Shown: positions 3,664 through 63,922 of the stretch, one piece after another | Layout: every line of letters begins with the position of its first letter | Position numbering within the stretch: the stretch's first letter is position 1 | Source of the DNA: Heterotrichella gracilis | Taxonomy: Eukaryota; Sar; Xanthophyceae; Tribonematales; Xanthonemataceae | Direction: 5' to 3' | Length of the DNA stretch: 64,000 bases | NCBI GenBank assembly: GCA_032358255.1 | Contig: JAULBX010002667.1 | Location: 80,383-144,382, forward strand | Made by a program: the position numbers and the translations under genes | The notes under the pieces: generated by a model | Seen by the model: only the letters and a program-made list of their open reading frames with translations | What the model was told of the DNA's origin: nothing | Databases searched by the model: none

Positions 3664-6600
3664 TCATCCCCCCTCCTCCTCCCCTGCCTCCCGCCACACC
3701 CCCTCCAAGTGCAGCACCCCCCTCCTCCCCTCCTGCAGCAGCCGCACCAGCAGCCCGGTCCAAAGCTGGTAGGCGCTGGGATGGCAGTACCTGCGGGTTG
3801 GAGGGGAGAGCTGGGATAAGAAACAGAGAATAGTGCAAAGCAAAGCACCGTGCAGCAAATGGTGAAAATGGGCAAAAACAGTGCACGAGAATACACATGG
3901 CAGGTATGGTGACAGATACCGGTGTGGCATACGCACGTGCTCAGCTTGAAAACAATTACTGATGTTTTTACATCACATGTGTCCCCATCGTCATTGTGAT
4001 CAATATGCTGAAATTTCTGTGATTGATTCTCTATAGTTGCACCTGATGCAGTCCGATCCGCCCAGGTGGAATGCCCACAGGGGGTGCGTTGCGCGCCAGA
4101 TGCGCAGCACAGGGAGTGACAGCGCCTCCATGCGTGCACTGGCCAGGGTGTTGTGCCTGCCGGGGTGGGGCTTGGTGCCCAGGCGGGTGCAGTTGGCGTC
4201 GCCTGCGTGGGAGTTGCGAGGGGGAGTGAGGGGGGTCGTTCAGGGAGGGAAGTCGTTCGAGTGGTGTCGTGTGCAGGGTTGGTGTGTGTGTGTCTGTGTG
4301 AAAGCTTTGAGCTTGTAGGGGGCTGCTGTGCCCTATAGGGTACATTGATGCACCACCCATTTATCCTTTTTAGGGTTAACGGTGTTTATGCTGAGCACCA
4401 AGCAGGGCATCTATGTACAATTCTTGGGACAGGTACTACTATTTCAATTGGGGCTATGCTGTGCAACCGCTTTCGTCTTTGTATCAACCATAGCAACTCT
4501 GGTATTGCTTGGGCGGCATTTGCATCACATCATGTGGACACCCTCTCTCATCCCTCTTAACCAACGCCAGCAGCTCGCTGCCGTATGCCCCATACCCACA
4601 CTCTCAAGGTTTAACGGACCTTGGAACTTGTTGTGCAATCCAAAACCCTGAGCATACTTCTAACCACCCACCTTCGCCCGTGTACCACCCATGCCTGCTC
4701 TGGTAGTGCTGGGGAGGCGTCTCCATCCACATCATCTGTGGTAGCTGCTCCTTTTTCTCCTCAACAAACGCCAGGAGGTCGCTTATATCCCTGTCATATG
4801 CCTCCATGTGGGTGGGGGAATGTGAGTATGCACCCCCAAAATTGACCAGCATGATGTCGTTGTGCAGGGTGGATGAGTGGTCCAGGAGCGCGGGGAGGAA
4901 GGTGGAGACGAGCGTGCTGCCCCTGGCAAAGATGAGAGTGCATATCCTGCAACAGCAATAAATTATAATAAAATGATTTAATGTTTGTCACATAAATGTG
5001 TAATTCTTGCCAGGACCGACACAGATATGAGTGCTTACAGAAATGAGGGTACCCTGCAACAACATTAAGTGAAGTGCTTTTCCTTGCCTGGAGCAAAAGA
5101 TAGTGCATTTTAGTTCTGCTGCATGTTTTGCCAATGCTGTGGAGTGGTAAAGCACAGCGGGGAAAGGAGGTGGGAAGGAGGGTGCCGAACCCGCCAAAGG
5201 TGGGGGTGCATACACCGTGCCATAAACAAGAAAACCCTAAACCCTACAACTTTCTTTTGATCAAACGCTGTGACGAGACGTGGACACGAACAGGCAGGCA
5301 ACATGTGCAACTCTAAAACTACCTCAGGATTTTCCACTCACCGGGTATTCAAATACAGGGTGAGGCACAGGGGCGCCCGGTCGACCTCCGGAATGCTGCT
5401 ATCCTGCAAGATCTCTGCTAAAGCAGCAATCCCGAGGGGGGCCACACGGCGCAGAGAGGGTGCCAGGTCATGCATGAAGCACTCCACTGCCCGGTACAAG
5501 TGTCGCATGCTGGTATCACCCAGCAGCCACAGCGTGACACCCTACACAAGGGTCTTGGCGTTAGGGTGATAAGCTAGGGTCTGGCATCATGATGTGAAGC
5601 ACCCCAGTGCCCGGTACAGGTGTCGCCCAGCAGCGCGACACTCAACACAAAGGTTTGGAGCTAGGGTCTGGCATCATAGATAGGGTTTGGATTCAAAGAA
5701 ATCCTTGGAAGAAGTACTGAGGACTGCGAACTTTTTTCAACGGTCTAGGGATTAGAATACCGGTAATCCCACCCACCTGTGTCACATTCAGCAGGTCGCA
5801 CAGCACGTTGTCATCAAACTGAGATAGCCCCAATGGCCCCATACTTTCCCACTAATCCATGCAACGTCTCCCTTGAGGCAGTCACGCTGCACAGCTCTGC
5901 ATCCTCCACCTGGCAAACCTCACCCAGGTCTTTTCAAGACCCTCCCTTTTAGAGTATTTCCCACCCACCTGCGTCACATTGAGCAGGTCGCAGGGCATGA
6001 TGTCATCGAAATCCAGCCCCATGCTGGCCCCATACTTGCCCACCAGCCCATGCACCGCCTCCCTTGAGGCAGTCACGCTGCACAGCTCTGCGTCCGCCAC
6101 CTGGCACACCCCGCAGCAGGTGGGGTCGGAGGGTTGGCAGCCAGTGCATGCAGTGGCGGCCACATTGGCATATGATTGGTAGTCGAAGAGGGGAGGGTTC
6201 ACCCGGGTGTAGGGCTGGCGCCGGTACTCTGGGGGCGGGAAAGGGGGATTGTTGCCGAGTTTCACCAGGACAGGGTCTTGAAATAAAATTAAATGCATGG
6301 TTTTACCAAAGCAGTATCAAGGGTTTTGGATGGGTCATGTCCCTCTCAAAACCCATGCGCCATCCGTTTGTTGCATACCCCTGTCACCGCCACCACCTAT
6401 GCCCTGCCATGCGATGAAACACCTTACAGTTCTCATGCCCTTCATAAAACCCTATGCTAGGGTTCATGCACACCTTCGCTTTTGTTGCACACCCGCGCCA
6501 CTGCCACCAGCTGCGCTTGCCATGCTAGGGACGATGACTCCCCTTCGGGAGGTAATCGCATCTCCCCCCCTGATGCACCGCTGCTGCCCTCTTCACCCTC

Positions 6601-6855: not shown

Positions 6856-8433
6856 GAAGGTATATTGAAAATAAACAAAATACAGTGCGTGCGGTCACGG
6901 TCCTTGCGAATTACAGGCGGCATGCTGGGAGCAGGGGCATCTCGGCAGCAGAGGTGTGCAGGCCATGCATGGGGTGGTGAGTAAGCTGCACACTCCAATG
7001 CACAGATGGGCAAACCAATATAGACCCCGTGCAGCTGGAAATACCCAGGAATAAACCATTGGTGCAATGTAGATAAAAGTAGTGTAACAAATGTGAAATA
7101 TCTCATGTATGTTATGCAGATAAATCAGCATTATCATTATGGATCTACCTTTTCAAGTGTCCATGGAGTGTTGCGTTGCCTCAGGGCAAGCCACATATGC
7201 ATGCATATACGAAATGCTTGCAGTCATAATGTCCACCATACTGTGCGTCACTAAGTGCAGCTAGTACACTAAGTCGCACCCAGATACGTCGCTTCTCCCG
7301 TGCCTTGACCATTGGCGCGCAACGCCTCACCCGGCGCCCATGGTGGAACCTCTCGTGGTCCTTGCGCGCAATTGCATGTACGTATTGCGCTGCAACTGCA
7401 GTGTTTACATAACCTGTCCCAGGCGGTGTTCGGTTGTTGACATCACCTATACGATGGTGTATCCGGTATTGATAGTGAACTGTACCGGGCGTGGGTTGCA
7501 AAGTGCTTCAGGGACTGGGTGGGTTGGCTTGGTTGCTAGGTATGGTGCAAGATGAATCGTTTGGGAGAAACTCACGGAGCTGTAAGTGGATAGTCGGAAA
7601 GGTGAGCCACAGGTGAGCCGTGTTTCAGACCAATACTCGTCGATCGCAGAGTCAAAGGTGCCTTTTTAACAACTCAACACCCATGCAAACACCCACACTG
7701 TTTGTTTTCGATATTGGAAATGATTTTGTTTTTTGGGACCACACACTTGTGCCAACAGCTATTTAGGCTGGTACATGCAACCTGTAAGCGAGCAGATAAG
7801 AAAAACTAATCAAAGACACTTGCGTTTTAGCTGCTTGGCGTGACTACAAGTTGTAGTACAAGTGGCGTTCCTCAGGTCAGCGTAGCCAAGGTAAGTCACG
7901 TGCATGCATTATAGTCACAACGTATTTGTGTGCGGGTCGCACGGCCATTTGTATCCTAGGTTGGCCGGTTGTAACGCGCCCATTCAATACAACCAAGGAG
8001 TAGTAAAGCACACTGGTGGGGCGTGGCTGGTCGTCGACATCTACACTGCATGCATGCATCACAATCCCCACAACCCTCAACATGCCTGGTTGAGGCGATA
8101 ACGGACCAGCCACACCCATCAGCTCAAAGCAAAACATCTGTTCTGCTTTATGTAATATGGCATGATTTTGTAACGGCGAAATCTGGGGAGCGCTTCTCAT
8201 CCCACCATCTCACTGGCGCCATGCACCCGAGGGACCACTGACCAGTGCTCTGGTTTATACGTCTACACTAAATTTTACACAGGGTGACACTGTGCGGCTC
8301 CAGCAGATGCCCCTGTACCACTCGATGTACCCTAAACCCTACGAGTTTTCTGCTCATTGCAGGCTTACTTCCTCCGCCCTGCCAGCTAGCTTCCCTTGGA
8401 TTACCCTAATCCTACACAGGGCGGCACTCTACC
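6856..8433. other. Divergent intergenic region, no gene seen
   Basis: Lies between the 5' ends of the esterase-like gene (-) and the lumenal protein gene (+), so it should carry both promoters. Short open frames occur on both strands, none with a recognisable family motif or intron pattern. Several TGCATGCAT palindromic words occur near 7195 and 8045. Confidence 0.55.
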
Positions 8434-10708
8434 ATGGTGGCTCCAGCAGCTGCCCTGCACCACTCCCCCTTCCAAGCCAACGTGGCGCAGCATAAGCAAA
8501 ACCCTAGGCTAGGGCGAGCGAGGCCAGCCTCACGGGCACAGCGGCAGGAGCAAAACCCTAGGCTAGGGCGTGCAAAGGCAGTGCAGAGGGAGGGTCAGCA
8601 AGGGAGGCATGGTATTGAGGGCATCTCCCGATCACAGCTGCTGCGACTGGCTGCCTCCACAGGTAAGGGTCTTGGGAAAAGCACGACAGAAATTCATTGC
8701 AACACAGATGCAGTTGGCGGGCACCAGCCCTCAACCGCCTGTGAGGCGCCCAGGGCTGGTGCCCTTCCCACGAATCCGGTATAATCATATTGTGTATGTT
8801 TTTGTTGGAAAGGCGGCCTTTACCGTTTTAATATTAAGGCTGTGCATCAAGTCTTTCATCGAGTCTGTTTGTGACATCATCCCCAGCCTCCCTGCTTCTC
8901 TCATCTCCGGCAGCCCCAGGCCCAATGCCACAAATTTCCTTTCCTTTACAATATCTAGTTCACGTTTTATAATATTTTCTCACTTGCATCCCCAGGCCTG
9001 CTGTCTTCTGCTGCTGTGGCCGTCCCCCAAGCAGTCTCCCCCCCACTGGCCCTGGCACAGTCACAGGAGCCAGCCCCACCACAGCTGAAGCCAGGGGAGG
9101 TAGGCCAACCCTCGGTTCTTTGTGCCCCACGTTTGCATTCTTTATTGGCCAGTACTATTTCAATGGTCATATGTAAATGACTTTTTTTAATCAATTTGTA
9201 ATGATGCATTGTATCAGTTTCTGTTGCACCACCTGTTCCAGGGGTGTAGCTTTGTTTGCTGGCGGCAGCCAGCTAATAGTGTCCAATCTACTTCACATTC
9301 GTAAATGCACAAATTCACAAAATGCGCAATACAACTAATTTGCACTGATGTGTCCCCCCAGGTGTACCTCCAGGCGCTGAACGGCAGCCAGCTGGGAGTT
9401 TCCATCTACCCCATCTTCTCATACAACGCCTCAGGGGGTGGGGGCAAGGGATGGGTCACTAACCTCCCCGCGAGCTCATCTGAAGAAACCCTAGACCCTA
9501 CCGAGGGCGAGGAGACCCTAAACCCTACTGAGACCGGTTCTCAGATCCTGAACATCACCTTTGATGCCGCCTCCCTATTCATCCCCCCTGTGGGCCCTGG
9601 CACCACCACCGTTGGGGGGGTACCCCTACCACCCCCCCTGCGGATCTCAATCGTCCCCACCAAATTGGAGGGCACTGTGGACCGAAGCACGGGTATTGTT
9701 GAGCTGGAATTCCTGGCGCAGTTCAACTTCACTGCTGGGCCGCTGTACAAGGTGGGTCAGGTGGCAAAACCCAAACCCTTATACCTAAACCCTCATTCCT
9801 ACATCGATCAGCTGTTGTACAAGGTGGGTCCAAAGGCAAAACCCTAGACCCTAACGCTCCCCGATGTCACCTGATGCAACCCCAGCCCCTCTCCGAGGGT
9901 AGGCCTCCCCCTCAGCATGTCCAACTCCCTCACCGCACCACGCCACGCCATGCCACACCACGCACCACATGCCACCCATGTGTCATGACGGCCCCTTGTT
10001 ATGTCCACCCGTTTCCCCACCACCCCACACCTCATCACAGCCCCCACACACCCGCCACACCACCCACCACCACCATTCGCATCCCATTCCATAATGCATC
10101 CCCCCCGCATCCCTCACCCACCAACCTCCCTCCCCACACGCAGGCCGCCCCCCTGATCGTGTCCACCCGCCTCACCACCGAGTCCTCATCCGGACCCTTG
10201 CGCAGCGGCACGGGCAGGAGGATGGATGCAGATGGATACGCAAAGTACGATTAGGGTTTAGGGTTTAGGGGTAGGGAGGGATGCACAAGTTTACGCATTG
10301 CATACACACGAGCATAATTGCTTTTTGGTGAAGTGGAGCTCCCAATGGGCTTAGGATCAAAGGTTGCGCTAACAGTAATGACTGGTGACGCCAGGCGATT
10401 GGGCACAAAATTGCGTGAATGGGCAAGTGTGCGAGCCACAAGTTGGGCGCCAAAATGCATCATTTCCTGCTGGCATTTGCCCACAGGACTTCAGTATGTC
10501 CACACAAGTTAACAGTGTATGTGAATAAATTTGAAAAGTCCAGTTCCTGGCATCTGCTGCAGCTGGCATTTGACCCCCGCTCCCGTGTCTGTGCAGGCTG
10601 GTGGGCGTGGCGCGCGTGCCCCTCACCGACGACGCCTTCTTGAATAACTTCCTCATGCTCCCCACGGATGCGCTGGCGGTGCTTGAGTCAAGGCTGCTGT
10701 TTGGATGA
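8434..10708 (+). CDS. Thylakoid-lumen targeted protein of unknown function
   Basis: Five exons (8434-8662, 8996-9099, 9362-9751, 10144-10244, 10597-10708) join in phase to 311 residues. Residues 1-64 are rich in Arg, Ala and Gln with almost no acid, as in a chloroplast transit peptide. They are followed by SRSQLLRLAASTG and a hydrophobic stretch ending PPLALA (about 97), a lumen signal with an A-x-A cleavage site assembled across intron 1. The mature part has SIYPIFSYNASGGGG and GWV near its start, several acidic ETLxPTE turns, a beta-rich middle (LRISIVPTKLEGTVD, VELEFLAQFNF) and a C-terminus with VARVPLTDDAF. I do not recognise the family. Location is well supported, function is not. Introns and exon 3 contain telomere-like words. 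Confidence 0.72.
9800..9848 (+). repeat. Echo of the lumenal gene exon 3 donor
   Basis: The exon 3 end (CTGTACAAG then GTGGGTC and GGCAAAACCC) recurs about 70 bases downstream as TTGTACAAGGTGGGTCC plus AAGGCAAAACCCTAGACCC. It offers a second GT donor in the same sequence context. Confidence 0.75.
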
Positions 10709-10844
10709 GGGGCTTGGCGGGGTGCTAGTAAGTGGACCATCATCGGTGTGACTGGGTGTCTGAATCAGTTCTGGATCATGGTTTTGGTTACTTACCAGGC
10801 AAGGATGACATCGTAGTATTTAGTGTTGGGGAATTGAATGACTT

Positions 10845-10925
10845 TGCATGCTCCCCACGTATGCACTGGCCCAGGGGGTTAATTGCAGTGCTAGGGGACA
10901 GACTGTTGCTTAGATGAGGGGCGAG
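10845..10925 (+). repeat. Echo of the terminal exon of the lumenal gene
   Basis: CATGCTCCCCACGTATGCACTGG, then a GTGCTAGGGGACAGACTGTTG...GATGAGGGGC segment, parallels the last exon (CATGCTCCCCACGGATGCGCTGGCGGTGCTTGAG...GATGAGGGGC). A shorter, weaker third copy occurs near 11048-11110. The copies lie downstream of the stop and are not open in the matching frame. Confidence 0.65.
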
Positions 10926-11622
10926 TGGGCATCAAACGTTGTGACTCAGATTATTACCTGAGGGGGGACCATCGTGACATGCCAAGCCAGGTATCTTTTT
11001 GTGTCTTCAAATTTGAAATTTGAAGTCAGTGGCTCAGTATTATCGTGCTCCCCAGTTACCCTCAGTGTATGCGCTGGCAGTGCCGCGTGGGGCATAGTGT
11101 GCGCTGGCAATGCAGCGTGAAGCAAGGCGTTGGGCAAGGTCCTTGCTGGAGCTTGGACAAATATAGTTGTAGGTCGTCCTCAACAATGGATGATGCATAT
11201 TGTATTGGAAACCGCATGATGACATTGCATGCAGCATATGGGTATCTATAATGTAAACATTTGACATGGCATGCATGTCATGTCAACCATTATGGAAGGA
11301 CTACCTATTCTGGTGGCCTCATAATGTTTGCTGTGGACCGCATGCAGGATATTGATATCCATGATGCGAACTTTTATATCTTTCACATGACCTTGCTGAG
11401 AATCGTGAATTATCCACCCGTGAATTGGCCCGGCCCGGGATCAGCAGTACTGTCAGTGCACTCACCCAGTCTGGGCTGCAATAGCAAGAGTGCTACAAGG
11501 GTGCCACATTCACCTATTAGGATGTTAGTAACAGATAGGTAATTGTCTTGCCATTATGGTACGATACCCAGTCTTGCACATGGTCAACCTATGGGAATTT
11601 TGCAAACGACATGCATGCGACA

Positions 11623-13043
11623 TTAATCATTGCTGTCTCCCTTGCTGGGCTTGGAGTATGCCTGCTTCAGCAACCAGGCCTTGGCAGAGGCATACTCCGC
11701 AAATTGCGCAGCAGAGTCTGGTGGGTCCATCAGCTGCCCATCCTCAACCGAAAACAACTGGCTGATAGCAATTAAAGATGGGTGGAAGTCTACCTGCTGC
11801 ATCATGTACCTCCCGTACGCGCCTTGCAAGGCAACTTTTGGACCGGGAGGCTCAGGCAACATAATAGCCAGATTGGCACCACTGCGCCTGTATACATAGG
11901 ATAAGACAGGGTTGCAGCAGAGGCAGCGCAGGTCTGGGTGCATCTGGTGGGGCATGGGAAGCTCAAAGCTGGGCGGGCGTCTGCGGTAATCACAGTCAAG
12001 GCCCGTCAACACCAGCCGCGTCAGATTGGGCATGGCTGGAATGGTGAACACTTCATTTTCCTTGTTGGATGTGACCCCAAGCTCCTCCAGGTGTGTGAGC
12101 CTTGACACTATGGCGGCCATGTCGCTGATGGGGAAGCTCAGCACCAGTAGCTTGCGCAGGTTGGGCAGTGGGGCGAGGGCGGGCAGGAGAGCTGGGAAAA
12201 GCCCCATCACCTCCTTCTGCAGGAACTCATTTCCATCTACAGTCCCGCGCAGCTGGAGGTCTACCAGCGAGGAGGGAAGACAGCTGCCTGGGAACTGCAC
12301 ATGGGCGATGCCGATTGTCATCAAGGTGAGGCTGGTAAGGGAAGTCAGCTGGGAGAGGTTGGCTGGGACTGAGCAAGGCCCAAAGGAGAACAGGTCAACA
12401 CGCAGCGCTGCAAGTTGGGCAGGCTGCGCACTGTCTTGTCAGTTGGCATAAACCATGCAGTGAGTAGGGTGACGCTGGGCAGGTAGAGAAGCGCCCCTGC
12501 CGCCTCCCTGGCGCTACTTCTAATTTCCAGCTCCTTCAGTTGTGTGAGGGTTTTGAGCTGGGTGAAGCTGCCAAACGATTGCGCGCTGTGATCGACTGCT
12601 TTTAATTCCAGGCGAGTGAGGCGAGTCAGAGCACAGAGCTGCCTGCAAGTGTCTGCAGCGTTGATTGGATCTGGTGATAGTCGCAGACTTGCAAATGACT
12701 GCAGCACCGCTGGATTCACGGCAGCCAGCAGATGTTGACAAACTTGGGTCTGCCAGTTGTAGCCCCATCCCAAGTTTAGTTTGCTGGTGCCCGACAGCCT
12801 GTTCCGCAACCAAGCAAGGAGGTCCTGCTGACTTACTAGGTCTAAGCTGGGCCTTGCCCCTAGGATGATGGTATCCCACACGGCGCTGGGCCCTTGCAGC
12901 AGGTCCCGCCACTTGGAACACACCAGGGAGAGCTTAGCTGTTTTTCCAGTGTTGGTCCAGGGCAGCTGGTTGACCTTCACGAAGATGTTGATGAGGCAGT
13001 CGTCCGGCAGGTCATGTATGTGCAGGGTGTTGCTGCGCGCCAT
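11623..13043 (-). pseudogene. F-box/LRR protein copy with a one-base frameshift
   Basis: Single exon starting MARSNTLHIHDLPDDCL (ATG at 13043) and ending KPSKGDSND. It matches the plus-strand paralogue at 14285 over its full length: an F-box in the first 55 residues (LPDDCLINIFVKVNQL, LVCSKWRDLLQGPSAVW), then leucine-rich repeats (LTQLKELEI, LPNLRKLLVLSFPIS, LTHLEELGV). Such proteins bring substrates to SCF ubiquitin ligases. Near 12385-12405 one base is missing relative to the paralogue: after LPNLQRCVL the frame shifts and stops about 15 codons later, while the sequence keeps matching in the next frame (FGPCSVPAN). The span of 1421 bases is one short of a multiple of three. Recent pseudogene or a sequence error are both possible. 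Confidence 0.8.
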
Positions 13044-14284
13044 GTCGCACCCAGCTGTGATATGCACTGCAAAACAGTAGTGTACAGTCACTAGTAGAGC
13101 CTCTTTGGACCCTCTTTGGACACGGCGGGGTAAACCTGAAAGTAACTGCTGAAGAGGAAACAAAGCGCTAGAACAGGGCGAGGAAGACCACTGTGACACG
13201 CCTATGTGTGACTGCAGAATTCTACTGCAAAAGCACGATGTGGGCGATATTGGGTAAGAGCTATAGCTCAAACCCAGTAGCACCCACGTCGCATTTTTCC
13301 GTTGTTAGCAGTGTGTAGCTTGTTTGACTTGCTCCTTGGGTCTTGACAAGTTGTCACAAGTCAGATGCCATCAGCAATCCGGTATATATCTAGATGCATC
13401 GCAGAGTATGGCTTACTCACCTCAGCGTTGTGCGTTTGGTATATTTTTAGCTTGTCACAACATTGTCTGAGTATTAACTGCGGGTGAAACTGCTTCCAGG
13501 GCTTCTACGTCGGTTGCATGCATGAGACTTCAAATCTCTGAACCTTACCCTGCTGCTGCTGCTGACTCTGCCAGCGTTCGTTTAGGTTTCCTCGATAAAC
13601 TGCGCTGGCTTCTACTGTTCTGCCACCTGACGTGCAAGCCGTGTTTTGTGCGTATTTTTGACGTGCCGCCCGGGTTTAGGTTTGTTTCCAATGCATGCGT
13701 ATGGCAAAAATGCATGCATGCGTATTACATGGACAACGATAAGTTGGGTAGACCAGTTGATGCACGACACAGAAACCACAGACGCAAAGTTAAGGGATAA
13801 CTTTGTTGGAGGACTTACACTAACAAGATACTTTGCGCTACGGTATTATTTGTGTGATTTTGGGGGGGAAATAAATAAGCTTCACTCAGGAGGGACACCC
13901 GGAACACCCAGAGAAAGGCATGAAGCGAAGCCTAGAAGTTGCCACCACGTTAGACTCTTAAACTGGCGCACATATCCTGAGGTGGGTTGTACGGTTTCAG
14001 CCGAGCCCTGCAAGCTCATGCATAACCCAACCTGGGCTACTGTCAAGAGTGTGTTGCGGATCACTTCAAAGCTGACCTCAAGCTACTTATGCCTGTGTCA
14101 GGAACAATTCTACACCCAATTGCAGGTGGGTGTTTTGAAGCTTTGCTCTCCTACCGCATTTCCCCTCTTTACAGTGCCTTTTCATCGCTGTCAATGCATG
14201 CATATGCGTGCCCGAGGAGGCTCTACAGCTCACTACTAAGTGTACACTACGTGTATTGCAGTGCCCATCAGAGCTGGGTGCGAC
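13044..14284. promoter_or_regulatory. Shared upstream region of the F-box/LRR pair
   Basis: Head-to-head interval of about 1.24 kb. Just before each ATG both genes have the same text: a TTGCAG acceptor, then TGCxxATCAxAGCTGGGTGCGACATGG, which suggests a 5' UTR intron in both. The rest holds short open frames without family motifs. Confidence 0.5.
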
Positions 14285-15694
14285 ATGGCTTGCAGCAACA
14301 CCCTGCACATACACGACCTGCCGGATGGCTGCCTCACCAACATCTTTGTGAAGGTCAACCAGCTTTATCGTGGAGACCCTGCCCCAACAGCCCGGCTGGC
14401 CCTGGTGTGTTCCAAGTGGCGGGACCTGCTGCAAGGCCCCAGCGCCGTGTGGAAAACCATCAACCTCAAACCCCTCAGCAGATATGCAGGTCATCCTGCG
14501 AGACTGCAGGAGCTCTTTGCGTGGTTGCAGAACAGGCTACCCGTCACCAACAAGTTCACCATGGGATGGAACCACAGGGAAAGCCCCCAGGTTTGGCAGC
14601 AGCTTCTGGCTGCCCTGAACCCAGCTGTGCTGCAGTCACTTGAAAAGCTGGTGCTGGTGCACACAGCCAGCGTCGCAGACGTTTGCAAGCAGGTATGCGC
14701 CCTGACTAGCCTCACTCGATTGCGGCTAGCCGCTGACTCCAGCACAAATGCTTTTGGCAGCTTCACCCAGCTGTCCACCCTCACACAGCTGAAGGAGCTG
14801 GATCTCACTACTTGGGAGCAAGAACACCCCTTCACGCCGCACCTTCCCTACCTGCCCAGCGTCACCCGCCTCACTGCTACTTTCATGCCAGCCGAAGAGA
14901 CAGTTCGCAGCCTGCCCAACTTGCAGCGCTGCGTGTTGGAGATGGGTCGCTGTGGGCCCTGCTCGGTCCCAGCCAACATGACCCGGCTGACTTCCCTCCT
15001 CAGCCTCACTATAGAGACAGATGATGACACCCCTGTGCGGTTCCCAGGCAACTGTTTGCCTTCCTCGCTGGTAGAGCTCCAGCTGGTTGGAATCTATGTA
15101 GGACACGACCTTCCAGAGGATGCGGGTGAGCATCCTCCAACACTGCTGCCGTCCCTCGCCCCGCTGCCCAACCTGCGCAAGCTGCTGGTGCTGAGCTTCC
15201 CCATCAGCGACATGGCCGCCATGGTGTCAAGGCTCACACACCTGGAGGAGCTTGGGGTCACGCACACCCCGGAGGTGGATGAAGTGCTCACCATTCCAGC
15301 CATGCCCAACCTGACAGAGCTTGTGTTGACGGGTCTTGAATCCCATCCGCCCAGATTCATGCTTTCCATGCCTCACCAGATGCATCCAGACCTGCGCTGC
15401 CACTGCTGGGATCTTGCAGTATGGTCACCCGATGAGGCCTGCCTGGGCTTTTTTCTGCCCGATTTGGAGGATACAGGCCCAAAAGTCACCCTGCAGGGCA
15501 CTTGTGGCAAGTACACAATGCAGCAGGTGGAGTTTAAAATCAATTTCAGCTTTTGTCAGGATTTTTCACCAGAGGATAGGCACTTGGGTGACACAGCAGA
15601 CATTGCTGCACAGGCTGCGGAGTACGCCTCTGCCAAGGCCTGGTTGCTGAAACAGGCATTTGTCAGGCCCGCGGAGGTACGCAATGACAAATGA
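14285..15694 (+). CDS. F-box/leucine-rich repeat protein
   Basis: An intact single exon of 469 residues. An F-box occupies about residues 6-55 (LHIHDLPDGCLTNIFVKVNQL, then LALVCSKWRDLLQGPSAVW). The rest is built of irregular LRRs with LxxLxxL patterns (LTSLTRLRLAA, LTQLKELDL, LPNLQRCVL, LTSLLSLTI, LPNLRKLLVLSF, LTHLEELGV, MPNLTELVL), ending with an acidic, Ala-rich tail shared with the paralogue. Known role of the class: substrate receptor of an SCF E3 ubiquitin ligase, the F-box binding Skp1 and the LRRs the target. The start is the first Met after a conserved acceptor, although the frame is open a little further upstream. Target and pathway cannot be read from sequence. Confidence 0.85.
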   Translation: MACSNTLHIHDLPDGCLTNIFVKVNQLYRGDPAPTARLALVCSKWRDLLQGPSAVWKTINLKPLSRYAGHPARLQELFAWLQNRLPVTNKFTMGWNHRESPQVWQQLLAALNPAVLQSLEKLVLVHTASVADVCKQVCALTSLTRLRLAADSSTNAFGSFTQLSTLTQLKELDLTTWEQEHPFTPHLPYLPSVTRLTATFMPAEETVRSLPNLQRCVLEMGRCGPCSVPANMTRLTSLLSLTIETDDDTPVRFPGNCLPSSLVELQLVGIYVGHDLPEDAGEHPPTLLPSLAPLPNLRKLLVLSFPISDMAAMVSRLTHLEELGVTHTPEVDEVLTIPAMPNLTELVLTGLESHPPRFMLSMPHQMHPDLRCHCWDLAVWSPDEACLGFFLPDLEDTGPKVTLQGTCGKYTMQQVEFKINFSFCQDFSPEDRHLGDTADIAAQAAEYASAKAWLLKQAFVRPAEVRNDK

Positions 15695-16604
15695 TGTCAA
15701 TGATATGGTTTGGATTGTTTCACCGCTCGTTAATGTTTATTGGACCCAATTTGCTGCAGCCAATTTCTGAACAGCCGTGTACATTGTGATAGCGAGTGAA
15801 ATCGGCGTTGGTACCAATTACACTCAGATATTTTAAAGCGTGGGGTGGTAATTAATTACCACCACACAATTGTGATGGGCCTCTCCCGCTGGATGCGACT
15901 CAGTGAGACGACAAGCCATTTGCAGATGGCATGCCAACTTAAAGGCTTGGGAGGATGTATGTAAGAGTGCCACACGGTTACCGGTGTCAAATTTACATTT
16001 CTCTGTTTCTAACAAAAAAATAGAAAGGACATCCGGCTGTGGACTGCCGCAGTGTGGCACTGACCCGAGCCTCGGATGGTAAAGTCAGTGCCTGTCAGAG
16101 AAGCTAGAAAAGAAAAGAAAAAACGGCTTTATCTACTGTCACAGTGTCCGTTGGCGCGGGGGCGTAGCTCTCAAATTATACCAAGTTGGACCTCTGGATA
16201 ATTTAGCCAGGAAGAAGCCAAGGCTCCTTACAAGCATCAATGGCAGCACAGCAGAATAACTCTACGCATTCATGATTCAATCGTAAGTAACCCAATAGCA
16301 TTTGTAAGATTACTGCATGTCAGTAAAACCATCCGTCAGAGAAATGATGGGTGCAGAACCTTTTACTAACTCAGCTTCCCTACGGGCTTGATTTGCTTGG
16401 AACTTAGTGTTGGTTTGTCAAATCCAACAACAAATTAATCATGAATGATCATCATCCCAATCTGGCAAATAAATGGGGCATGCGAGGATAGGAGCTCCTC
16501 CTCACTAGTGCATGGCATGAGACTACTACTGGGTGGCCCACCCCTGCGGCTCTTTCTGTATCTGTCATCATTGATCATCCCTGCAGCTGACGATCCCCAC
16601 AACC
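15695..16604. other. Intergenic, no gene seen
   Basis: Between the converging F-box gene and AAA+ gene. AT-rich, with a short AAAAG run near 16107. No coding signal or clear polyadenylation motif was recognised. Confidence 0.6.
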
Positions 16605-22640
<6,036 letters not shown>

Positions 22641-23653: not shown

Positions 23654-26600
23654 ATGTTGGTTCGCCTGGTGGCGAACGTGTTCCGTGGTAGACTGCTGCT
23701 TCAGCCTCGCACGCACAGCACGCATGGCATCCTGACACAAAGGCAGCGCGTGCTTGGACGAGGCCTACAGTGGCCACACCCACCGATGAAGCAAAGCAAC
23801 CTATCACGGTTCTTCACGAAACCTGCCGCTACTGGTGGCAATGCTGGCGAGGCTGGGGCATCAACCTCAAAGACTGAGGTGCCTGCACCTGCCAAGAACG
23901 CCTTTGACGTGTTGAAGGAGCGAAAGGTACGGTTGCTAACTTCCCTGGTTGTTGGTGACGTATTTGTGGGTGATTTTTTGAAAGGTTGTCAGCAATATCG
24001 AGGTGGTGCAATTGTGTGGGCTATGGGTCGTGGGTATGCAACTCGTGCTCTATATGCATGCATGTGCCATATGCCCACCTGCCAATAAATGGGTCTGCTG
24101 CCAACCCAGTTGCACTATATGTTCCTCGTCTCCTTAAAATGTGCAGCTAAGCAATTAACGCACCAACCTGGGATCTGGGTGCCCCCCCTATTTTCCAGCA
24201 TGTCCCATGCCATAGCTGCTGCAGTGGTACTCGTGTCCGTCCTACTGTGAGAATTGTGTGTGCCGCAATACCATACCTGTGTTAGTGCTACATTTGGGAT
24301 CTTTATGCTTGGTGTGCGGAATAGACTGTTAGCTGTATGTTGTTATCATGCTTGCACCGGTAGTGGCCATCAGCCCACTAAAAACTCACAGATGTGGGGC
24401 ATTGGCTCCACGCCTTGGGTTTGCAACGGTCGAGATTTTTATACATAAAAGGAAACTGCAACTATTATTGAACACATCATGAGCTGGTAATGCCCGTAAA
24501 TAGTATGGGTATTGAAATAGTAAGGACCCCTGCAGCAATTCGGTTGACGCACGGGTCAACCATGGGGCGGGGATTCCCAGCGCTGAAGAGGATTTTGCGA
24601 CCAGTGGGGTGCATGCTGGCTTTTCAACCCCTTGCTGTACCTCCCTCCTCCCCTTTAAATTTGCACCCTTGTCGTCCTCATTGCGCCAGACACCCTGCAA
24701 CCTCAAACTTCTCCACGTATCCCCCTTGCAGCAGAACAAGGAGGGCCCTGCCAAAGCGACAGCCTCCCCTGCCCCTGGCACCAAAGGAGCCGCAGGCACG
24801 CGGAAAAGGCTGCAGAAAAAAGGCGCAGATGTGGGCAAGGCCGATGCTGCCGCAAGCGCTGCACCTGGGTTGGAGGACCTGGATGATGCGGCTGAGGAGC
24901 CCACAGCGGCATCGGCCAATGAGAATGCGCCGGCTCGGGTGGTCGCCATGATGGTGCGTTGCATTGACGCCTAAATCCAGCCTAAATCCTAAACTCTAAT
25001 CAAGCCTAAATTAATGCTAAACCTTCATCCATATCATCGCTTGATGAGGAACCGCCAGCTGTGGTATATGCCATCCTGTTGAGTTAAAATGATGCTAAAG
25101 CTCAAACCCTAACGAGAACGGGTTAGCTGCGGTGCTCAATTTTTGGACCCTCGAGCTTAAATCCCACAGAAGCTTGTATGGTACTGGCAGCAAATGACAC
25201 CCCTGGTTCTTCCTGGCACAAACTTATCTAATAATGAATAACAGAATAATGATGAAAATAGTAATCAGTGTTTGCCCCGCAGGAGTCGGATGATGATGCC
25301 TCCCCTGCTCCTGCGCCCCGCAAACGCAAGTCCCCTCCGCGGGCCAAGGCTTCCTCCAAGGGGGGCGAGCCCACTGCGTCGGGGTCGAGCGGGGAGGAGT
25401 GGGGGGCTGCAGGGAAGAGGTCCAAAGGGGAGGAAGCAGGTGCGGGGGACGGGCTTGACGTGGCGTTTGGGATGGTTTGTGCTGCATGGCATGTGGGTAT
25501 TATGGTGCATGCATTGTCCACCCACATGGCTTGTAATGACCACCAACACACATTGCATGTGGGTCTCATGGTGCATGCATTGTCCGCCCACATGGCTTGC
25601 ATTGACCGCATGGTGTGTGGGTCTCACTGCGCACCCTGCACTTGCCACCTGGCATACACCCACAGACCGCCACCTGGCATGGCAATGCATGCATGCATGG
25701 AGTCAATGGCATTGACCGCCAAATGGCATGCGCTGACGGCTCACATGGCAAATGGGGCTCATTTGTGCAAATGCACCCGACCCTCACATGGCATGGCACA
25801 TGCAGACTCTGGCGATGCGTCCGACCTGGAAGGGGTGGTAGAAGACAAGGAGGAGAAGGTGGTGAAAGCCAAGAAGGGCAAGGCTGCAGGCAAGAAATCA
25901 GAGAAGAAGGCGCTTCTGGCGGGTGTCAAGGATGCTAAGGTGGGTAGTACCTTCTTGGGAAACTCTGTCCAGGGTACTTGTAATCTTGTACTTGAAAGCA
26001 GACAAGTTGATTTTGGTCAGCACATGGATGCCGTGTATGTAGGCCCTCTTGGAAAACCCCTATGCAATGTGTTTGAAACCTTGAAAGAGGCTGTTCTGGG
26101 GCAGCATGGCGCTAAAGTTGGCAGCACCTTATGGAAAAACCCTGTGCATAGAGCTTGAAAGCCTGTTTAAAATTATTTCCTCCCCATGCAGGTGGAGGGT
26201 GTCGGCCTGGGTGCCCTCAAGGCCGCCGCCCAGCACGCCTCCTTCGACCTCTCACAGATTGCCACGTGGCAGCCAGGCACCCCCGTGCCCTTCTCCTTCC
26301 TGGCAAACACGTTCGAGGCGATTGCGGAGGAATCCAAGCGTTTGATCATCACCAATCTGCTGATTAATGCGTTTCGGGCGATCACCGCACACACGCCCGA
26401 GGATTTGCTGCCCACTGTGTATCTGTGCACGAATCGGGTGGCGCCGGCGCACGAGGGGGTGGAGCTGGGGATTGGGGATTCCACGCTCATCAAGGTGGGG
26501 ACTGGGTTTTGTATTCCGGGCCAGGAATTGAGCTGGGGATTGGCGTGGTATGTGAGTGTCCCAGGGTGTTATTATTTGTGTTGGGTTGGGGACTAAGGGT

Positions 26601-29600
26601 GCGACATTTGTCATGATGGGGATTGAGGTGGGGATGCCTCAGTCATCAAGAGGATTGAGCATATGGTAACTATACTGGAAGGGCCGAAATGCATCATGTG
26701 TTTTCCCCTTCAATGTCTGTCATCAGCAGTACTTTGTGGCATTGTTCATCGTCATCATGTGATACCCTCCCCCCCCCACCCCACCCCCCGCATCCACCCA
26801 TCACATGGCCTCACAACCCACACACCCTTTCAGGCACTGGCCACCGCTACCGGCCGCAAGGAGAGCGTAATAAAGAAGGAGTATGAGGAGGAGGGGGACC
26901 TGGGGGTGGTGGCTGTCACATCCAGGGGCAAGCAGAGGACAATGTTCACGCCCGCGCCTCTGACGATACGGGGGGTAAGCAGCAAAACCCTAAACTCTAA
27001 GCAGGGAATCCCTATACTGAGCCAGGACAGTTTTTATGCTGGACCGAGCACATGCCTGGTATATGCTGCCCTTACTGGCGATGTGTGTGTGCCATGTGGT
27101 TGTGTAAGCTTTCTCAGTCATGCGGTTGGAGAACTTGCCACGGGGAGACATCACCATATCTGTGCCATGACTGACCTGCAACCACCCCACCGCCCCACCA
27201 CCCACCAACCCCTATAACCCCCTCAGGTGTTCAAGACATTTGGTGACATTGCCAAATGCGAGGGGTCCGGCAGCCAGGAGCGCAAGAAGGCCCTCATCGG
27301 CAAGCTGCTGGTGGCTGCGCATCAGGGGGAGGCGGGCTACATCATGCGCGCGCTGCAGGTGAGGGCTAGGGTATGGGTCATGTAAGGGTTTTGGTGAGGG
27401 TTTTGCTAGCGGCAGCAGGGCTGTACGGGTATGTATGTGGGCACCACAGAGGGTTGGGTTATGGATAAACTTTTTGAATTCTTTGCTTCCTTTTGTGGGT
27501 TACATTAACAGTCAAAACAAAAGGTATGCAAGGTGGCAATGGCTTACCCTTTTATTTGTGGACTATAAAACTGGATTCACCCCCATTCCTCTGATCCGGC
27601 TCATACCCAAACCCCTCCGCCACCCTGCAGGGCAATCTGCGCATTGGCCTGGCTGAACAAACATTGTTTGGTATTCCTTTTTTGCTCCAAGTTGGATATA
27701 ACAATCATATTTCCCCCCCATTGTTGATTCTTAAATTGTCCCGCCCCCTTGCAGGGCAAGCTGCGCATCGGCCTGGCCGAGCAAACGGTGCTGACAGCGC
27801 TGGCACACTCTGTGCTGCTACAGATTGGGAGCAAGGCGTACAAGGGGGATGAGTAAGTCAATGCGACCCCAACCCAAACTCTAGACCCTTAATTCTTCAT
27901 GCCGTGTACCTAGTCCTAGACCCAGTTCCAAATCTAGTACCAGTGACTCATGGGGTAGTGCTGGCTTTCAGGATTAAGGATGTCAAGGGGTTGCTATGGG
28001 GTCACTTTTCTGTACAAGCAGCGGCGGTGATTGCTGCTGCATGCCTTCCGGGGATTGGGACTCGCTCAGAAGGGGATGATGCAAGGGTTGAAACAAACAC
28101 CATCCCTCACCCCAATATTTAGCTAAATACTTCTCTAAACATCAAGCATGAGCCGGAATTGAGGAAGGGTGGTAAAAACAATTGCTTCTACAGGCTGGCC
28201 AACCACCTTGAGGAGTCCTCCCAGCGGGTGAAGGCAGCCTTCAGCGCCTGCCCCTCCTACGACGTCATGATCCCCGCCATGCTGCACCACCCCTTGGATG
28301 AGCTGGCGCAGCATGTGCACTTCATGGCGGGGGTGCCGGTGAAGCCCATGCTGGCAAAGCCCACCTGTGGGGTCAGCGAGGTGCGCGGGGTGGAACCCTA
28401 GGGTAGGGTTTGATACCCAGCTTGCTTGCCCCTTTTGTGCACATCGTAGCTGTGAAATTTTTGCAGCAGAGTTTTTGAAAATAGCCCATGTTGCACCCCT
28501 GTTATTGTTCGCCTGTTGTATCCCCCCCTGTGCAGGTCCTTGACAAGTTCACCGACCTGGAGTTCACGTGTGAATACAAGTATGACGGGGAGCGGGCGCA
28601 GATTCACGTGCTGGAGGGGGGGAAGGTCAAGGTGGGTGAGCAGGGAAGGGGAGTAGGCCTTCGGAGGTCCATGGATTAGGACAAGGATTAGGGTTATGGT
28701 GCAGATGCACGTGCTGGAAGGGGGAAGGTCAAGGTGGGTTAGCAGGGGAGGGAAGGGTGCTAGGGTACCATTTAGGGGCCCAGGGTGGCATGCGAAATAA
28801 CCTTCCTGATTCTCGTCACAGTGGCTTGGGTGTTCAGCGATGTGTGGCTCAGGTTCCCGGTGGCATGTCAAGGCTTTCTACTATAATCTAGCCCAGAGGC
28901 TCACGTGATCTGGGATTCCTTGTGAGCCGACTCCCCTCCAACGCTAAACCCTAAACCCTAAACCGTACCTAGGTAGGGCTTGCCGAAGACACGCACGACA
29001 CACTTTTGCAGTTTCATTGCCATACCTGTCCCCTTTCCTGTCAAAATTCCCCCATCCACCCCACCCCCACCCCCACCTCCCGCAGATCTACAGCCGCAAC
29101 AGCGAGGACAACACCAGCAAGTACCCCGACCTTGCTGCGCTGGTGCCGGGGCTGCTCAAGGAGGGGGTGCGGGATGTGGTGCTGGACTGCGAGGCGGTGG
29201 CGTACAACAGGGAGGATGGAAAGATCCTGCCATTCCAGGTAGGGTTTTTCACTAGGGATTTGTTAGGGTTTGGTATGAGGGGTGTGGTGCTGGACTGCGA
29301 GGCGGTGGCGTACAACAGGGAGGATGGAAAGATCCTGCCATTCCAGGTAGGGTTTTCACTAGGGATTTGTTAGGGTTTGGTATGAGGGATGTGGTGCTGG
29401 ACTGCAAGGCAATGGCATACAAGAGGGCAAGGGCCCTACCAGGTGCAGAGTTGATTATTTGGTATTTATTATGATTTTGGCGTGGAGGACATCAAGGTGC
29501 AGATACACATCCAGTTTACTTTCATGTTGAAAATAATGCATTTAGTGTTTTATGAGATATTATAATATAAGTATATTTTTAACTCCAAAGTGAAATCCCA

Positions 29601-31977
29601 GCACCAAAATCCCAGCAACCCCCCTCTGTGCAGGTCCTGAGCACCCGCGCCCGCAAGGACGTGCGCGTGGAAGACATCAAGGTGCAGGTGTGCCTCTACG
29701 CCTTCGACTGCCTATACCTCAATGGGGAGGAGCTCATGCAGCGGCCGCTCACTGAGCGAAGGGCGGCGCTGCACGCTGCCATCAACCCTAAGGAGGGTGA
29801 GATGCAGATAGCCACAGCCAAGGTGGGTTGTGGGGGCTGGGAGGAGGTTTTTTAAAATCCTAAACCCTATGCATTCATTGGAGGCCCTAAACCCTATGCA
29901 TTGGGCTGTTTGCACCTCAACACGCGAGAGCTCATTGGCTGACGCAGCACAGGGCGGCGCTGCATGCTGCCATCAATCCCAAGGAGGGGGAGATGCAGAT
30001 AGCCACGACGGAGATGAGTTGCAAGGTTTAGGGCACCCTATCACAGATTTAGCCCAAATGCTCACGTGAAGTGTCCACCCGCCAGGCTTCATAAGGCAGT
30101 TCCTGGAAGAATCTAGTGCCCAATAGTGCTGGGGCATGACTTTAAATTTCCTAGACTTCACGTACAAACCTACGTGTTCCTACTCCCCACCACTGCACCC
30201 CTCTCCCCTCCCCTCTCACCCCCCGCCCCACCCCCCACCCCTTGCAGGTCTCCCGGGAGCTGGAGGAGCTGCAGCAATTCCTGGACGAATCAGTGACTGC
30301 GGGTACCGAGGGCCTAATTGTGAAAACCCTAGACTCCACCTACGAACCCTCACGCCGCTCCGTGAACTGGCTGAAGCTGAAGAAGGACTACCTGGATGGG
30401 GTGGGGGACACCTTTGACGTGGTGGTGGTGGGCGCGTGGTATGGCAAGGGGAAGCGAGCAGGTGTGTGCAGAAGGGTGGGGAGGAAATCGTGGGTGGAAA
30501 GGTGTACTCAGGCTGGCTGGTTCGCCTGACTCTGGTTGTGGTGGGCGCGTGGTACGGTAAGGGGATGCGGGCAGGTGAGTGAGTGCAGTGTGGTCATTCC
30601 AGACTCATAAATCCCCCGCCACTGCCTATGTCTTACCAACATTGGTAAATTACGCCGTGCATTCCTATCCAGCACTAACACTCACCAAAACCCCCACCTT
30701 GGAAACAGGCAAGGGCAAGCGGTTCCAGACCTGTCCTTTGCCACAAAATTGCGCACCCCTCAAAACCCTACTCTACCCTAACCCCTCTAAAACCCAACCC
30801 CTCAAAACCCTACTCTACCCTAACCCCCCCCGTCTCGGGCACTCACCCTAGCCAAAACACCCTCCACCCCCCCAGGCGGCTTTGGCTCCTACCTGCTTGC
30901 TGTGTACGATGGCGAGGGGGAGCGGTTCCAGACCATCAGCAAGATTGGCACTGGGTTCAGCGAGGAGCTGCTGGTGAGCCTGAGTGAGAGACTCAAGGAG
31001 CACATCATACCGGGGCCAAGGGCGTACTACAGGTGAGGGCGCGGTGCGGTGGGGTTGCTATCACCATGTGTGTAGATCTGACTCGTGGCGGGATGGGTGG
31101 GCCATGCCCTCTCCTCCTCTCCCCCTGGGTCAACTTTGCACCCACCCCACCCCCCACCACACGCACACACACCTGCACCCACATTTTTATCTCAAACACA
31201 TTTTTTACATAAATATATCAATTTTAATTTTAATTTTAATAAGTTTAGAGCGCTACTACCCCCCTCCTCACCCTCCAACCCCTATCCCTCGCAGCTATGG
31301 GGAGACGCTCACCCCCGACGTGTGGTTCGCCCCCAAGGTGGTGTGGGAGGTGAAGGCCGCTGACCTCAGCATCAGCCCAGTGCACAGGGCAGCAGAGGGG
31401 ATGGTGGATCCAAGCAAGGTGAGGGTGGGCGGGGATGGAGGGGGCAATGGCGGTGGGTGCCAGTGGGGGTGGGATGTGAAGGCGGTTTGCATACAATATC
31501 CCCTCCCCCAGGCTCCTTCTAAGGGTGGTGCAGAAGGTGGGACTCCCCGCCCGCCGCCTTCAGGTGGGCGGGGGCTGGGGTTGGCGCTCAGTTGCATGGT
31601 AACGGGCGCGGAGCATGTACAACTTTGGTGGCATGCCCCCCTTGACGAGGGGGGTGACGCCAGCCCTCACATGGTTGTGGCACCTGTCCACGCAGGACAT
31701 ATGCACCCCCCGCCTGGTCTGCGTGCATGCGTGACGACAAATCCTCGCCAACCACCACCTTAGCACTATACCCCTACTCACCATCTCCAGCCCACCCACA
31801 CCCACACCACTCCCACCCCACCCGCAGGGCATCTCCATCCGCTTCCCCCGCCTGGTGCGCGTGCGTGATGACAAGTCCCCAGAGGATGCAACCAGCGCGG
31901 AGCAGGTGGCAGAGATGTACAGGCGACAGGCGGTGATGCAGCAGGGGGGCCCGGCTGCCGCAGTGGATGAGGACTAG
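23654..31977 (+). CDS. LIG1: DNA ligase I, ATP-dependent, with leader and PIP box
   Basis: Sixteen exons (23654-23926, 24732-24953, 25283-25439, 25806-25939, 26192-26494, 26834-26974, 27227-27358, 27755-27852, 28194-28380, 28536-28631, 29086-29238, 29634-29822, 30248-30461, 30876-31032, 31295-31418, 31828-31977) join in phase to 909 residues, near the 919 of human LIG1. Nucleotidyltransferase motif I is EYKYDGER with the adenylated lysine at about 564; motif III is [12 protein letters not shown] is EGLIVKTL, V is NWLKLKKDY. The DNA-binding domain precedes it and an OB-fold follows. The first 44 residues are Arg-rich without acids, like a mitochondrial presequence; Met45 starts [10 protein letters not shown], a PIP box (Q47, L50, F53, F54) for PCNA. 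It seals Okazaki fragments and repair nicks. A start ATG at 23649 overlaps in another frame. Confidence 0.95.
25488..25790 (+). repeat. CATG-rich tandem repeat in ligase intron 3
   Basis: At least two well-matched units of about 70 bases (GTGGGTxxxATGGTGCATGCATTGTCCxCCCACATGGCTTG) followed by shorter, looser units with ACATGGC and GCATGCA words. The stretch fills most of the intron before exon 4. Confidence 0.85.
26612..26655 (+). repeat. Echo of ligase exon 5 donor end
   Basis: GGGGATTGAGGTGGGGAT, then a TCATCAAG, resembles the exon 5 end (GAGCTGGGGATTGGGGATTCC...CTCATCAAG). It is diverged and followed by AGGATTG rather than a GT donor. Confidence 0.5.
27615..27665 (+). repeat. Echo of ligase exon 8 acceptor end
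   Basis: CCCTGCAGGGCAATCTGCGC, then ATTGGCCTGGCTGAACAAAC, precedes and mirrors the true exon 8 start (CTTGCAGGGCAAGCTGCGC, ATCGGCCTGGCCGAGCAAAC) 129 bases downstream. It encodes [11 protein letters not shown] in frame after a usable AG and then diverges. Confidence 0.9.
28695..28750 (+). repeat. Echo of ligase exon 10 donor end
   Basis: CAGATGCACGTGCTGGAAGG, then GGGAAGGTCAAGGTGGGTTAGCAGGG, copies the end of exon 10 and its donor (CAGATTCACGTGCTGGAGGG, GGTCAAGGTGGGTGAGCAGGG) about 100 bases upstream. It keeps an AAG/GTGGGT junction. Confidence 0.9.
29272..29425 (+). repeat. Two echoes of ligase exon 11 donor end
   Basis: The block encoding [21 protein letters not shown] plus donor GTAGGGTTT is repeated almost perfectly at 29281-29360. 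A third, decayed start (GATGTGGTGCTGGACTGCAA) follows at about 29387-29425. The first copy is open and identical in protein over 20 residues. It duplicates the motif III region of the catalytic domain inside the intron. Confidence 0.95.
29940..30030 (+). repeat. Echo of ligase exon 12 donor end
   Basis: GGGCGGCGCTGCATGCTGCC, then ATCAATCCCAAGGAGGGGGA and GATGCAGATAGCCAC, copies exon 12 text at 29761-29815. The donor AAG/GTGGGTTG is changed to a GAGATGAGTTGCAAG form. Confidence 0.9.
30535..30735 (+). repeat. Echoes of ligase exon 13 end and exon 14 start
   Basis: GTGGTGGGCGCGTGGTACGG, then TAAGGGGATGCGGGCAGGTGAGTG (30538-30582), copies the exon 13 donor end. At about 30708-30738 the text GCAAGGGCAAGCGGTTCCAG, then ACCTGT, resembles the exon 14 segment GCGAGGGGGAGCGGTTCCAG, ACCATC. 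The intron therefore carries copies of both flanking exons. Confidence 0.75.
30762..30832 (+). repeat. Telomere-like CCCTA-rich tandem repeat
   Basis: A segment CTCAAAACCCTACTCTACCC followed by TAACCCC occurs twice with a short spacer, in ligase intron 13. It is a local duplication of degenerate CCCTAAA words. Confidence 0.8.
31690..31748 (+). repeat. Echo of ligase exon 16 acceptor end
   Basis: CACGCAGGACATATGCACCC, then CCCGCCTGGTCTGCGTGCATGCGTGACGACAAATCC, mirrors the true acceptor and exon 16 start (CCCGCAGGGCATCTCCATCC, CCCCGCCTGGTGCGCGTGCGTGATGACAAGTCC) about 135 bases downstream. Confidence 0.8.
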
Positions 31978-63657: not shown

Positions 63658-63922
63658 GTGCGATGCATGCCATGCCGGTGGTGCCATGCATCCAAGCTGG
63701 TAAACCAGCCATTGAAAGCTGGCAAATCGTATACCATCAAAGCAATACTTTAGAGCAACAAGTCACTCACAGCATGCACTACCTCCAATGGGTTCAAGGG
63801 TTCAGGTGCAAGATTGCCAGTTGCCGTTAAATGTGGTGCATCTGCAGGCTGTCACCAAGTATTAACCCAGGATTAAGATAAGAACATGTGTAATTGCTAT
63901 GCCGCCTATGCACGCCTTTGGC

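Follow-up and report, generated by a model that had tools for sequence, protein, structure and literature searches.

Direct copies of exon edges in the introns of four Heterotrichella gracilis genes, probable scars of small local duplications

In a window of 64,000 nucleotides of the Heterotrichella gracilis genome (the window being the whole stretch of DNA that was analysed), the introns of four multi-exon genes carry copies of the edges of their own exons, and these echoes are real and far beyond chance. A first-pass annotation had claimed them in four genes; this is confirmed, with 21 copies in 15 of 34 introns, far above controls. Our main reading, to which we give a probability of about 0.7, is that small direct duplications have recurred locally in gene bodies and left the echoes as scars. 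Such a recurring process, also proposed in that annotation, is supported by the own-exon test, the tile scan, the list of events and the decay pattern that we now describe.

Exon-edge copies in four multi-exon genes

The gene models were built from open frames, GT-AG sites and phase, and none of the four coding sequences contains an internal stop:

3664..6840, minus strand: esterase-like gene, 6 modelled exons, start not found
8434..10708, plus strand: "lumenal protein" gene (a name from the first-pass annotation), 5 exons, complete ORF
16605..22276, minus strand: AAA+ ATPase gene, 11 modelled exons, two AAA domains, model without start and 5' end
23654..31977, plus strand: DNA ligase I gene (LIG1), 16 modelled exons, three ATP-dependent DNA ligase domains matched

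Together they provide 34 introns (11,954 bp). Neither the lumenal-type nor the esterase-like protein matches a Pfam family at E 0.01, and for these two models the support is the reading frame alone; the GDTSMR motif of the second is esterase-like. The modelled LIG1 protein, with all copies omitted, aligns with human LIG1 residues 283-901, a part that corresponds to introns 5-15, and there are no surplus residues at the echo sites of these introns. The echoes of LIG1 introns 5-15 therefore lie outside the mature coding sequence; intron 4 is upstream of the aligned part. A search with part of the LIG1 protein found no relative among viral contigs, while among genome contigs it found archaeal ligase loci, with no eukaryotic relative among the 80 retained of 125; these loci were left out of the analysis.

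In the own-exon test each intron was compared with at most 200 nt of either flanking exon and scored against dinucleotide shuffles, with the reversed intron (antisense, 68 pairs) and non-adjacent exons (272 pairs) as controls. The first-pass annotation had asked how self-alignment would compare with shuffled exon-intron pairs: in the four genes, at z of at least 6, matches to the own exon are found in 16 of 68 sense pairs, against 0 of 68 antisense and 0 of 272 non-adjacent pairs. At z of at least 5 the counts are 16/68, 1/68 and 2/272, at z of at least 4 they are 18/68, 1/68 and 6/272, and 12 of the 34 introns reach z of at least 5. With reversed introns and non-adjacent exons so rarely matching, we rejected the idea that low complexity accounts for everything. 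Introner elements, similar sequences common to many unrelated introns, are another point of comparison: here the copies match their own flanking exon, and no non-adjacent pair of the 272 reaches z of 6, intron-versus-intron similarity having been covered by the self-BLAST of the window only.

A scan of 1988 tiles over 2.7-33 kb, independent of the gene models, gave the same picture. At a score of at least 20, 103 tiles had a nearby direct match, whereas 0.5 would be expected from distant sequence, and a single one had a nearby inverted match. Self-BLAST of the window likewise displayed a run of direct local repeats across 4.4-31.9 kb, where the sole local inverted match is a 70-bp palindrome (13229-13298). 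The copies are in direct orientation, and they match the adjacent exon only.

The youngest echo and its neighbours in LIG1 are as follows:

29168..29248, plus strand: end of LIG1 exon 11 with its donor, source of the youngest echo (108-bp unit)
29276..29427, plus strand: two copies of the LIG1 exon 11 end in intron 11 (tandem 108-bp array)
29480..29502, plus strand: 23-nt patch, 96% identical to LIG1 exon 12 (29665-29687), no detectable similarity beyond the patch
26088..26166, plus strand: donor echo of LIG1 exon 4 (25908-25989), seen in the tile scan only (own-exon z=-0.2)
26617..26650, plus strand: weak donor echo of LIG1 exon 5 (26466-26494), z=4.1, donor lost
27617..27662, plus strand: acceptor echo of LIG1 exon 8 (27741-27786), 87%, AG retained
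28663..28755, plus strand: donor echo of LIG1 exon 10 (28559-28653), GT retained
29894..30021, plus strand: donor echo of LIG1 exon 12 (29696-29830), donor mutated to AT
30096..30170, plus strand: acceptor-side echo of LIG1 exon 13 (30274-30348)
30527..30593, plus strand: donor echo of LIG1 exon 13 (30415-30479), GT retained
30708..30731, plus strand: 24-nt patch of LIG1 exon 14 (30911-30934), weaker, without matching surroundings
31681..31744, plus strand: acceptor echo of LIG1 exon 16 (31814-31878), AG retained with a 1-nt shift

Those of the other three genes are:

4472..4593, minus strand: donor echo of esterase-like exon 4672-4807, donor lost
5142..5212, minus strand: acceptor-side echo of esterase-like exon 4875-4944
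5576..5681, minus strand: acceptor echo of esterase-like exon 5457-5566, intron side copied too (~99-bp unit)
5767..5929, minus strand: donor echo of esterase-like exon 5959-6121, 83%, GT retained
6335..6425, minus strand: donor echo of the first modelled esterase-like exon (6433-6545), donor lost
9243..9300, plus strand: acceptor echo of lumenal-type exon 3 (9361-9418)
9811..9852, plus strand: donor echo of lumenal-type exon 3 (9739-9779), GT retained
9963..10044, plus strand: weaker acceptor echo of lumenal-type exon 4 (10119-10197), z=4.2
21012..21136, minus strand: second donor echo of AAA+ modelled exon 2 (21337-21459), GT retained
21226..21285, minus strand: donor echo of AAA+ modelled exon 2 (21322-21379), GT retained

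A near-perfect copy had been announced at 29281-29360, and it holds: 29276-29356 is 98% identical to 29168-29248. LIG1 intron 11 is indeed a tandem 108-bp array of 2.4 copies, with copies of the exon 11 end that are 97% identical over 71 coding nt and 87% over 45 coding nt, the first of which retains CAG/GTAGGG. If the second donor of this intron (29168-29346) were used, it would add 36 in-frame residues (ORF 28948-29373), and it is on this reading of the frame a candidate alternative 5' splice site.

The 21 catalogued copies take up 14% of all intron bases (1690 of 11,954) and 30% of those in echo-bearing introns; the other 19 of the 34 introns of the modelled genes have no accepted echo. In length 18 of the 21 measure 42-163 nt. 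They stand 72-325 bp from their source, with 17 of the 21 at offsets of 96-124 or 151-203 and 18 of the 21 at 104-325. In many events the copied segment comprises exon and intron bases across the junction, and in some exon bases only. As had been noticed, copies usually carry the splice site: of 12 donor copies, 8 have GT where the alignment calls for it (one shifted by 1 nt), and of 7 acceptor copies, 5 have AG (one exact, three shifted by 1-2 nt, esterase intron 2 by eye), a count that omits the third unit of LIG1 intron 11 and the two short patches. The catalogue takes in weak members, namely two that come from repeat scans only (LIG1 intron 4 and the donor copy of lumenal intron 3, which holds 13 nt of exon only and has an own-exon z of -0.2) and one at z=4.1 (LIG1 intron 5). 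Excluded from it were the downstream match of LIG1 intron 10 (z=3.8), second matches in LIG1 intron 15 and esterase intron 4, the second acceptor match of lumenal intron 3, upstream matches of AAA+ introns 1 and 5 (z below 4), a third match in AAA+ intron 2, a 53-bp repeat in AAA+ intron 4, and lumenal 9459-9507 against 9851-9899, which is telomere-like low complexity.

Decay, order and shape of the copies

With the two copies of LIG1 intron 11 split, the 21 catalogued copies give 22 alignments, whose identities go from 97% down to 72%. The claim of a range from near-perfect to barely visible was thus well founded, as identities extend from 97% to the detection limit: the copies are of different ages. 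This spread bears on the possibility that the echoes are an artefact of assembly, made of two haplotypes or misjoined reads, an explanation that a copy 97-98% identical to its exon might well evoke. Against it, however, stand the 22 identities distributed between 97% and 72% with a decay of the neutral type, and the fact that all four genes are affected, so that we regard it as extremely improbable.

Differences between exon and copy in the coding part fall on codon positions 1, 2 and 3 in the numbers 90, 50 and 111 (22 alignments), and 30 of the 33 gaps in the copy alignments shift the frame (hand count). The third position has a 44% share of coding differences, where approximately 45% is the rough estimate for a free copy beside a constrained exon. 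Copies keep neither reading frame nor coding constraint. Judged from the alignments, this pattern fits free decay beside a constrained exon, and the copies would not be maintained exons. Second-position differences are fewer than first-position ones (50 vs 90), which free decay does not obviously explain; some copies could once have been under coding constraint. One might go further and see in the copies functional alternative or regulatory exons, acting as decoy or poison exons or as alternative donors, and three features go in this direction: the frequent retention of splice sites (8 of 12 donors, 5 of 7 acceptors), the in-frame extension of LIG1 mentioned above, and this low second-position count. 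Yet frameshifting gaps, identities that reach the detection limit and a third-position share of 0.44, as in free decay, speak against it, and we find a functional role of this kind quite improbable.

The order of the copies is informative as well. In all five introns that hold copies of both flanking exons (LIG1 11, 12 and 13; lumenal 3; esterase 2), the copy of the upstream exon lies 5' of the copy of the downstream exon, as two separate junction duplications predict; two of these five (LIG1 11 and 13) depend on the short patches for their second copy. Duplication of a whole intron was rejected on account of this order. The first-pass annotation had brought up intron birth by tandem duplication of AGGT-containing exon sequence, known as the Rogers model, and direct duplications with AG/GT at the junction are plentiful here. 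But this model predicts the downstream-exon copy at the 5' end of the intron and the upstream-exon copy at its 3' end, the reverse of what is seen in 5 of 5 informative introns, and the copies carry extra splice sites inside introns; the suggestion is unsupported, and we rate it as very improbable for these genes. Repeated events in a single intron are attested by two donor copies in AAA+ intron 2 and by the array in LIG1 intron 11.

Is the copied segment a whole tandem unit? Copied length equals offset clearly in LIG1 intron 11, and the intron side of the acceptor copy of esterase intron 2 scores 22.2, against 21.5 expected of a tandem unit. A simulation of neutral decay covered 17 copies, leaving out the far AAA+ copy, the weak copy of LIG1 intron 5 and the two patches. 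In its stricter setting, where the copy took all the change, 13 of the 17 echoes fit a decayed whole tandem unit and four (LIG1 introns 7, 13 and 15; esterase intron 3) have too little intron-side similarity, with a combined p=0.0004. In the milder one, where the copy took three quarters of the change, 9 fit and 8 fail (combined p=1.5e-9). Similarity outside the aligned core is significant in 1 of 19 echoes, in a comparison where random intron draws could include the same intron. The missing intron-side similarity calls therefore either for other insertion and deletion turnover, or for many copies having been short displaced insertions from the start. On the strength of these alignments some echoes may be displaced insertions, and the plain tandem model misses some cases.

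Missing intron-side similarity points toward templated insertion, in which a polymerase engaged in break repair would copy a nearby exon edge, with a few intron bases, into an intronic break, leaving dispersed patches. The two patches of 23-24 nt without matching flanks, the 1 of 19 echoes with significant similarity outside the core and the 4 to 8 of 17 that fail the neutral tandem expectation all agree with it. Repair by templated insertion, however, should yield inverted copies too, and these are wanting: antisense matches number 0 of 68 at z of at least 6 and 1 of 68 at z of at least 5, with 1 inverted tile of 1988 at a score of at least 20. Furthermore, the copies in LIG1 intron 11 do form a tandem array, and esterase intron 2 is compatible with one. 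Templated insertion as the general source of the echoes is in our view rather unlikely, and on this point filled-in staggered breaks, or slippage, have the advantage, inverted copies being absent.

Coming back to recurrent local duplication, events might unfold as follows. A segment of very roughly 50-200 bp, often an exon end with the start of the intron or the reverse, would be duplicated beside its source; when it crosses a junction, the gene would acquire two donors or two acceptors. If the outermost splice pair were still used, the inner copy would be absorbed by the intron, the protein remaining unchanged while the intron becomes longer, and carriers using the inner splice site would be removed by selection. 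Use of the outer sites is probable, protein homology being the basis for this in LIG1, and it would keep the protein intact and place the copy inside the intron, which would grow. The intronic copy would then decay freely while the true exon stays constrained, which would generate the spectrum from fresh to barely visible. As for the molecular cause, the simplest would be staggered breaks that are filled in and joined, or else slippage, and on this other intron turnover or displaced insertion would be superimposed. That introns grow in this way had also been proposed, and it is a reasonable inference from the 14% of intron bases held by copies and from the greater length of echo-bearing introns (median 396 vs 326 bp, p=0.012), a difference to be read with caution, since a match has more room in a long intron.

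Junctions, other duplications and telomere-like motifs

The duplication process had been described as centred on exon-intron junctions. We simulated random tandem duplications, keeping those that were intronic or junction-spanning, ageing them by up to 0.6 substitutions per site and applying the same detection score: random placement predicts that 55% of detectable events span a junction. Observed junction events number approximately 18-22 and intron-internal ones 5-8, which gives p=0.11, 0.020 and 0.004 in three groupings made by hand. Recurrent direct duplication stands, while a special pull toward junctions is weakly supported, and survivorship could explain most of the excess. Local duplications also occur away from introns in the lumenal-type gene:

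8264..8323, plus strand: duplicate across the start-codon region (8402-8465)
8475..8581, plus strand: in-frame tandem duplication within coding exon 1, spacing 51-54 bp
10834..10922, plus strand: copy of the last exon with the stop region (10640-10713), located in the 3' flank, no splice junction

Moreover, an SPK-rich ORF (1833-2594) consists of an in-frame tandem array of ~99-bp units. As duplications are present at start and stop regions, in exon 1 and in this ORF, the process needs no splice sites.

The F-box, PP2C-like and Cys-rich genes had been set apart as free of echoes, which we could check in part, in the first and the last of these. The F-box-type genes (11603-13124 and 14207-15712) are in inverted orientation and 73% identical, one being a single long ORF and the other two overlapping ORFs; the one that was scanned has F-box matches slightly below Pfam cut-offs. 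The Cys-rich family (39545-63847) has several diverged copies and other repeats on both strands, ~62-81% identical, and the three ORFs scanned had no Pfam match at 0.01. Between the paralogues 46319-52262 and 57566-63847, 73% identical when ungapped, 15 insertions measure at least 20 nt, and 6 of these are well flanked; no local direct duplicate is among the 15, in a comparison made without exon models. Direct repeats are fewer in 38-63.9 kb, with 19 of 1695 tiles at a score of at least 19, versus 121 of 1988 in the gene region; the 12 local repeats listed for 33.5-64 kb are not assigned to exon or intron. There are hints here that the process favours certain genes, the Cys-rich comparison being blind to exon structure. 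The window ends in a perfect run of TTTCT (63924-64000, 15.4 copies).

Finally, telomere-like motifs abound in the introns of the four genes. Their top 8-mers are of this type, AAACCCTA/TAGGGTTT being found 26 times where 0.7 is expected (both orientations), and the heptamers AACCCTA/TAGGGTT 32 times where 2.4 is expected. The motif reaches 1.8-2.9 per kb in every one of the four genes. Elsewhere in the window it occurs at 1.1 per kb in positions 1-2700, at 0.8 in the PP2C-like stretch and at 0.38 in the Cys-rich part, and it is lacking from five other stretches that total ~11.4 kb. Matches to ACCCTA/TAGGGT gather in the first 80 nt of introns, with 22 of 47 in 23% of the length (p=0.0003). 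In coding exons the motif stands in frame at 8490-8570, 9485-9535 and 16940-16970 (8 exon matches), yielding peptides such as QNPRLG, ETLDPTE and QNPTLG. The motifs do not cluster at the edges of the echoes (p=0.57), and no link between the two was found. One may nevertheless imagine transcribed gene bodies that are repeatedly broken and repaired by fill-in, with two sorts of scars, local duplications and short TTTAGGG-type patches; we take this as an unlikely conjecture, with the strong concentration of patches in the four multi-exon genes of the window on one side and the absence of any tie to copy edges on the other. If it were true, the introns of such genes would be largely layered repair scars from their own exons.

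Known systems and the growth of introns

In the potato RdRp gene, a tandem genomic duplication spans an intron-exon boundary (Ma, Lan and Niu 2016, PMC4974935). There too a single exon-intron boundary lies within the duplicated segment, and splice signals are copied along with it; the potato case, however, is one event which made a new intron, whereas here copies are met in 15 introns and existing introns have apparently been enlarged. The Rogers or AGGT model of intron gain is itself tandem genomic duplication (PMC3443670, PMC4974935), and shares with our case local direct duplication with AG/GT sites, but here the copies stand in the reverse order in all 5 introns that hold both kinds, and no new intron is seen. 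In Daphnia, direct repeats inside introns were linked to staggered breaks and suggested to lengthen introns; of the new introns 61.1% (55/90) have them, of the established ones 16.2% (100/617) (PMC4202315). Repeats shared with one adjacent exon are 4-12 bp there, while 18 of our 21 copies measure 42-163 nt. Exon copies in introns, degenerate ones included, are a recognised class: full-exon duplications occur in about 4-7% of vertebrate genes, and partial or intronic matches are said to be more frequent (PMC12343006, PMC9013439). Exon sequence recurs in neighbouring introns in both situations, but these sources stress full exons. At the level of mechanism, fill-in of staggered breaks by CST-Pol alpha leads to small tandem duplications in mouse and human cells (PMC8355091). 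These are head-to-tail duplications arising from break repair, as those here may be, yet they are under 100 bp, when 18 of 21 offsets here are 104-325 bp.

In a literature search that left subscription papers mostly outside, none of the leading matches describes introns growing densely through copies of the exon edges beside them. What we describe is a dense variant of a known junction-spanning duplication process, with potato RdRp as its precedent.

The origin of intron sequence is an old question, long open because the source sequence is rarely identifiable (PMC4974935). In the echo-bearing introns of these genes approximately 30% of the bases can be traced to a neighbouring exon edge, over a range of ages, which suggests that repeated small duplications lengthen introns and that splicing hides them. 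Such a genome would allow one to measure the pace of intron growth by duplication; it would also give access to the way in which intact decoy splice sites are passed over by the spliceosome, and to the moment at which a copy turns into a new exon or a new intron.
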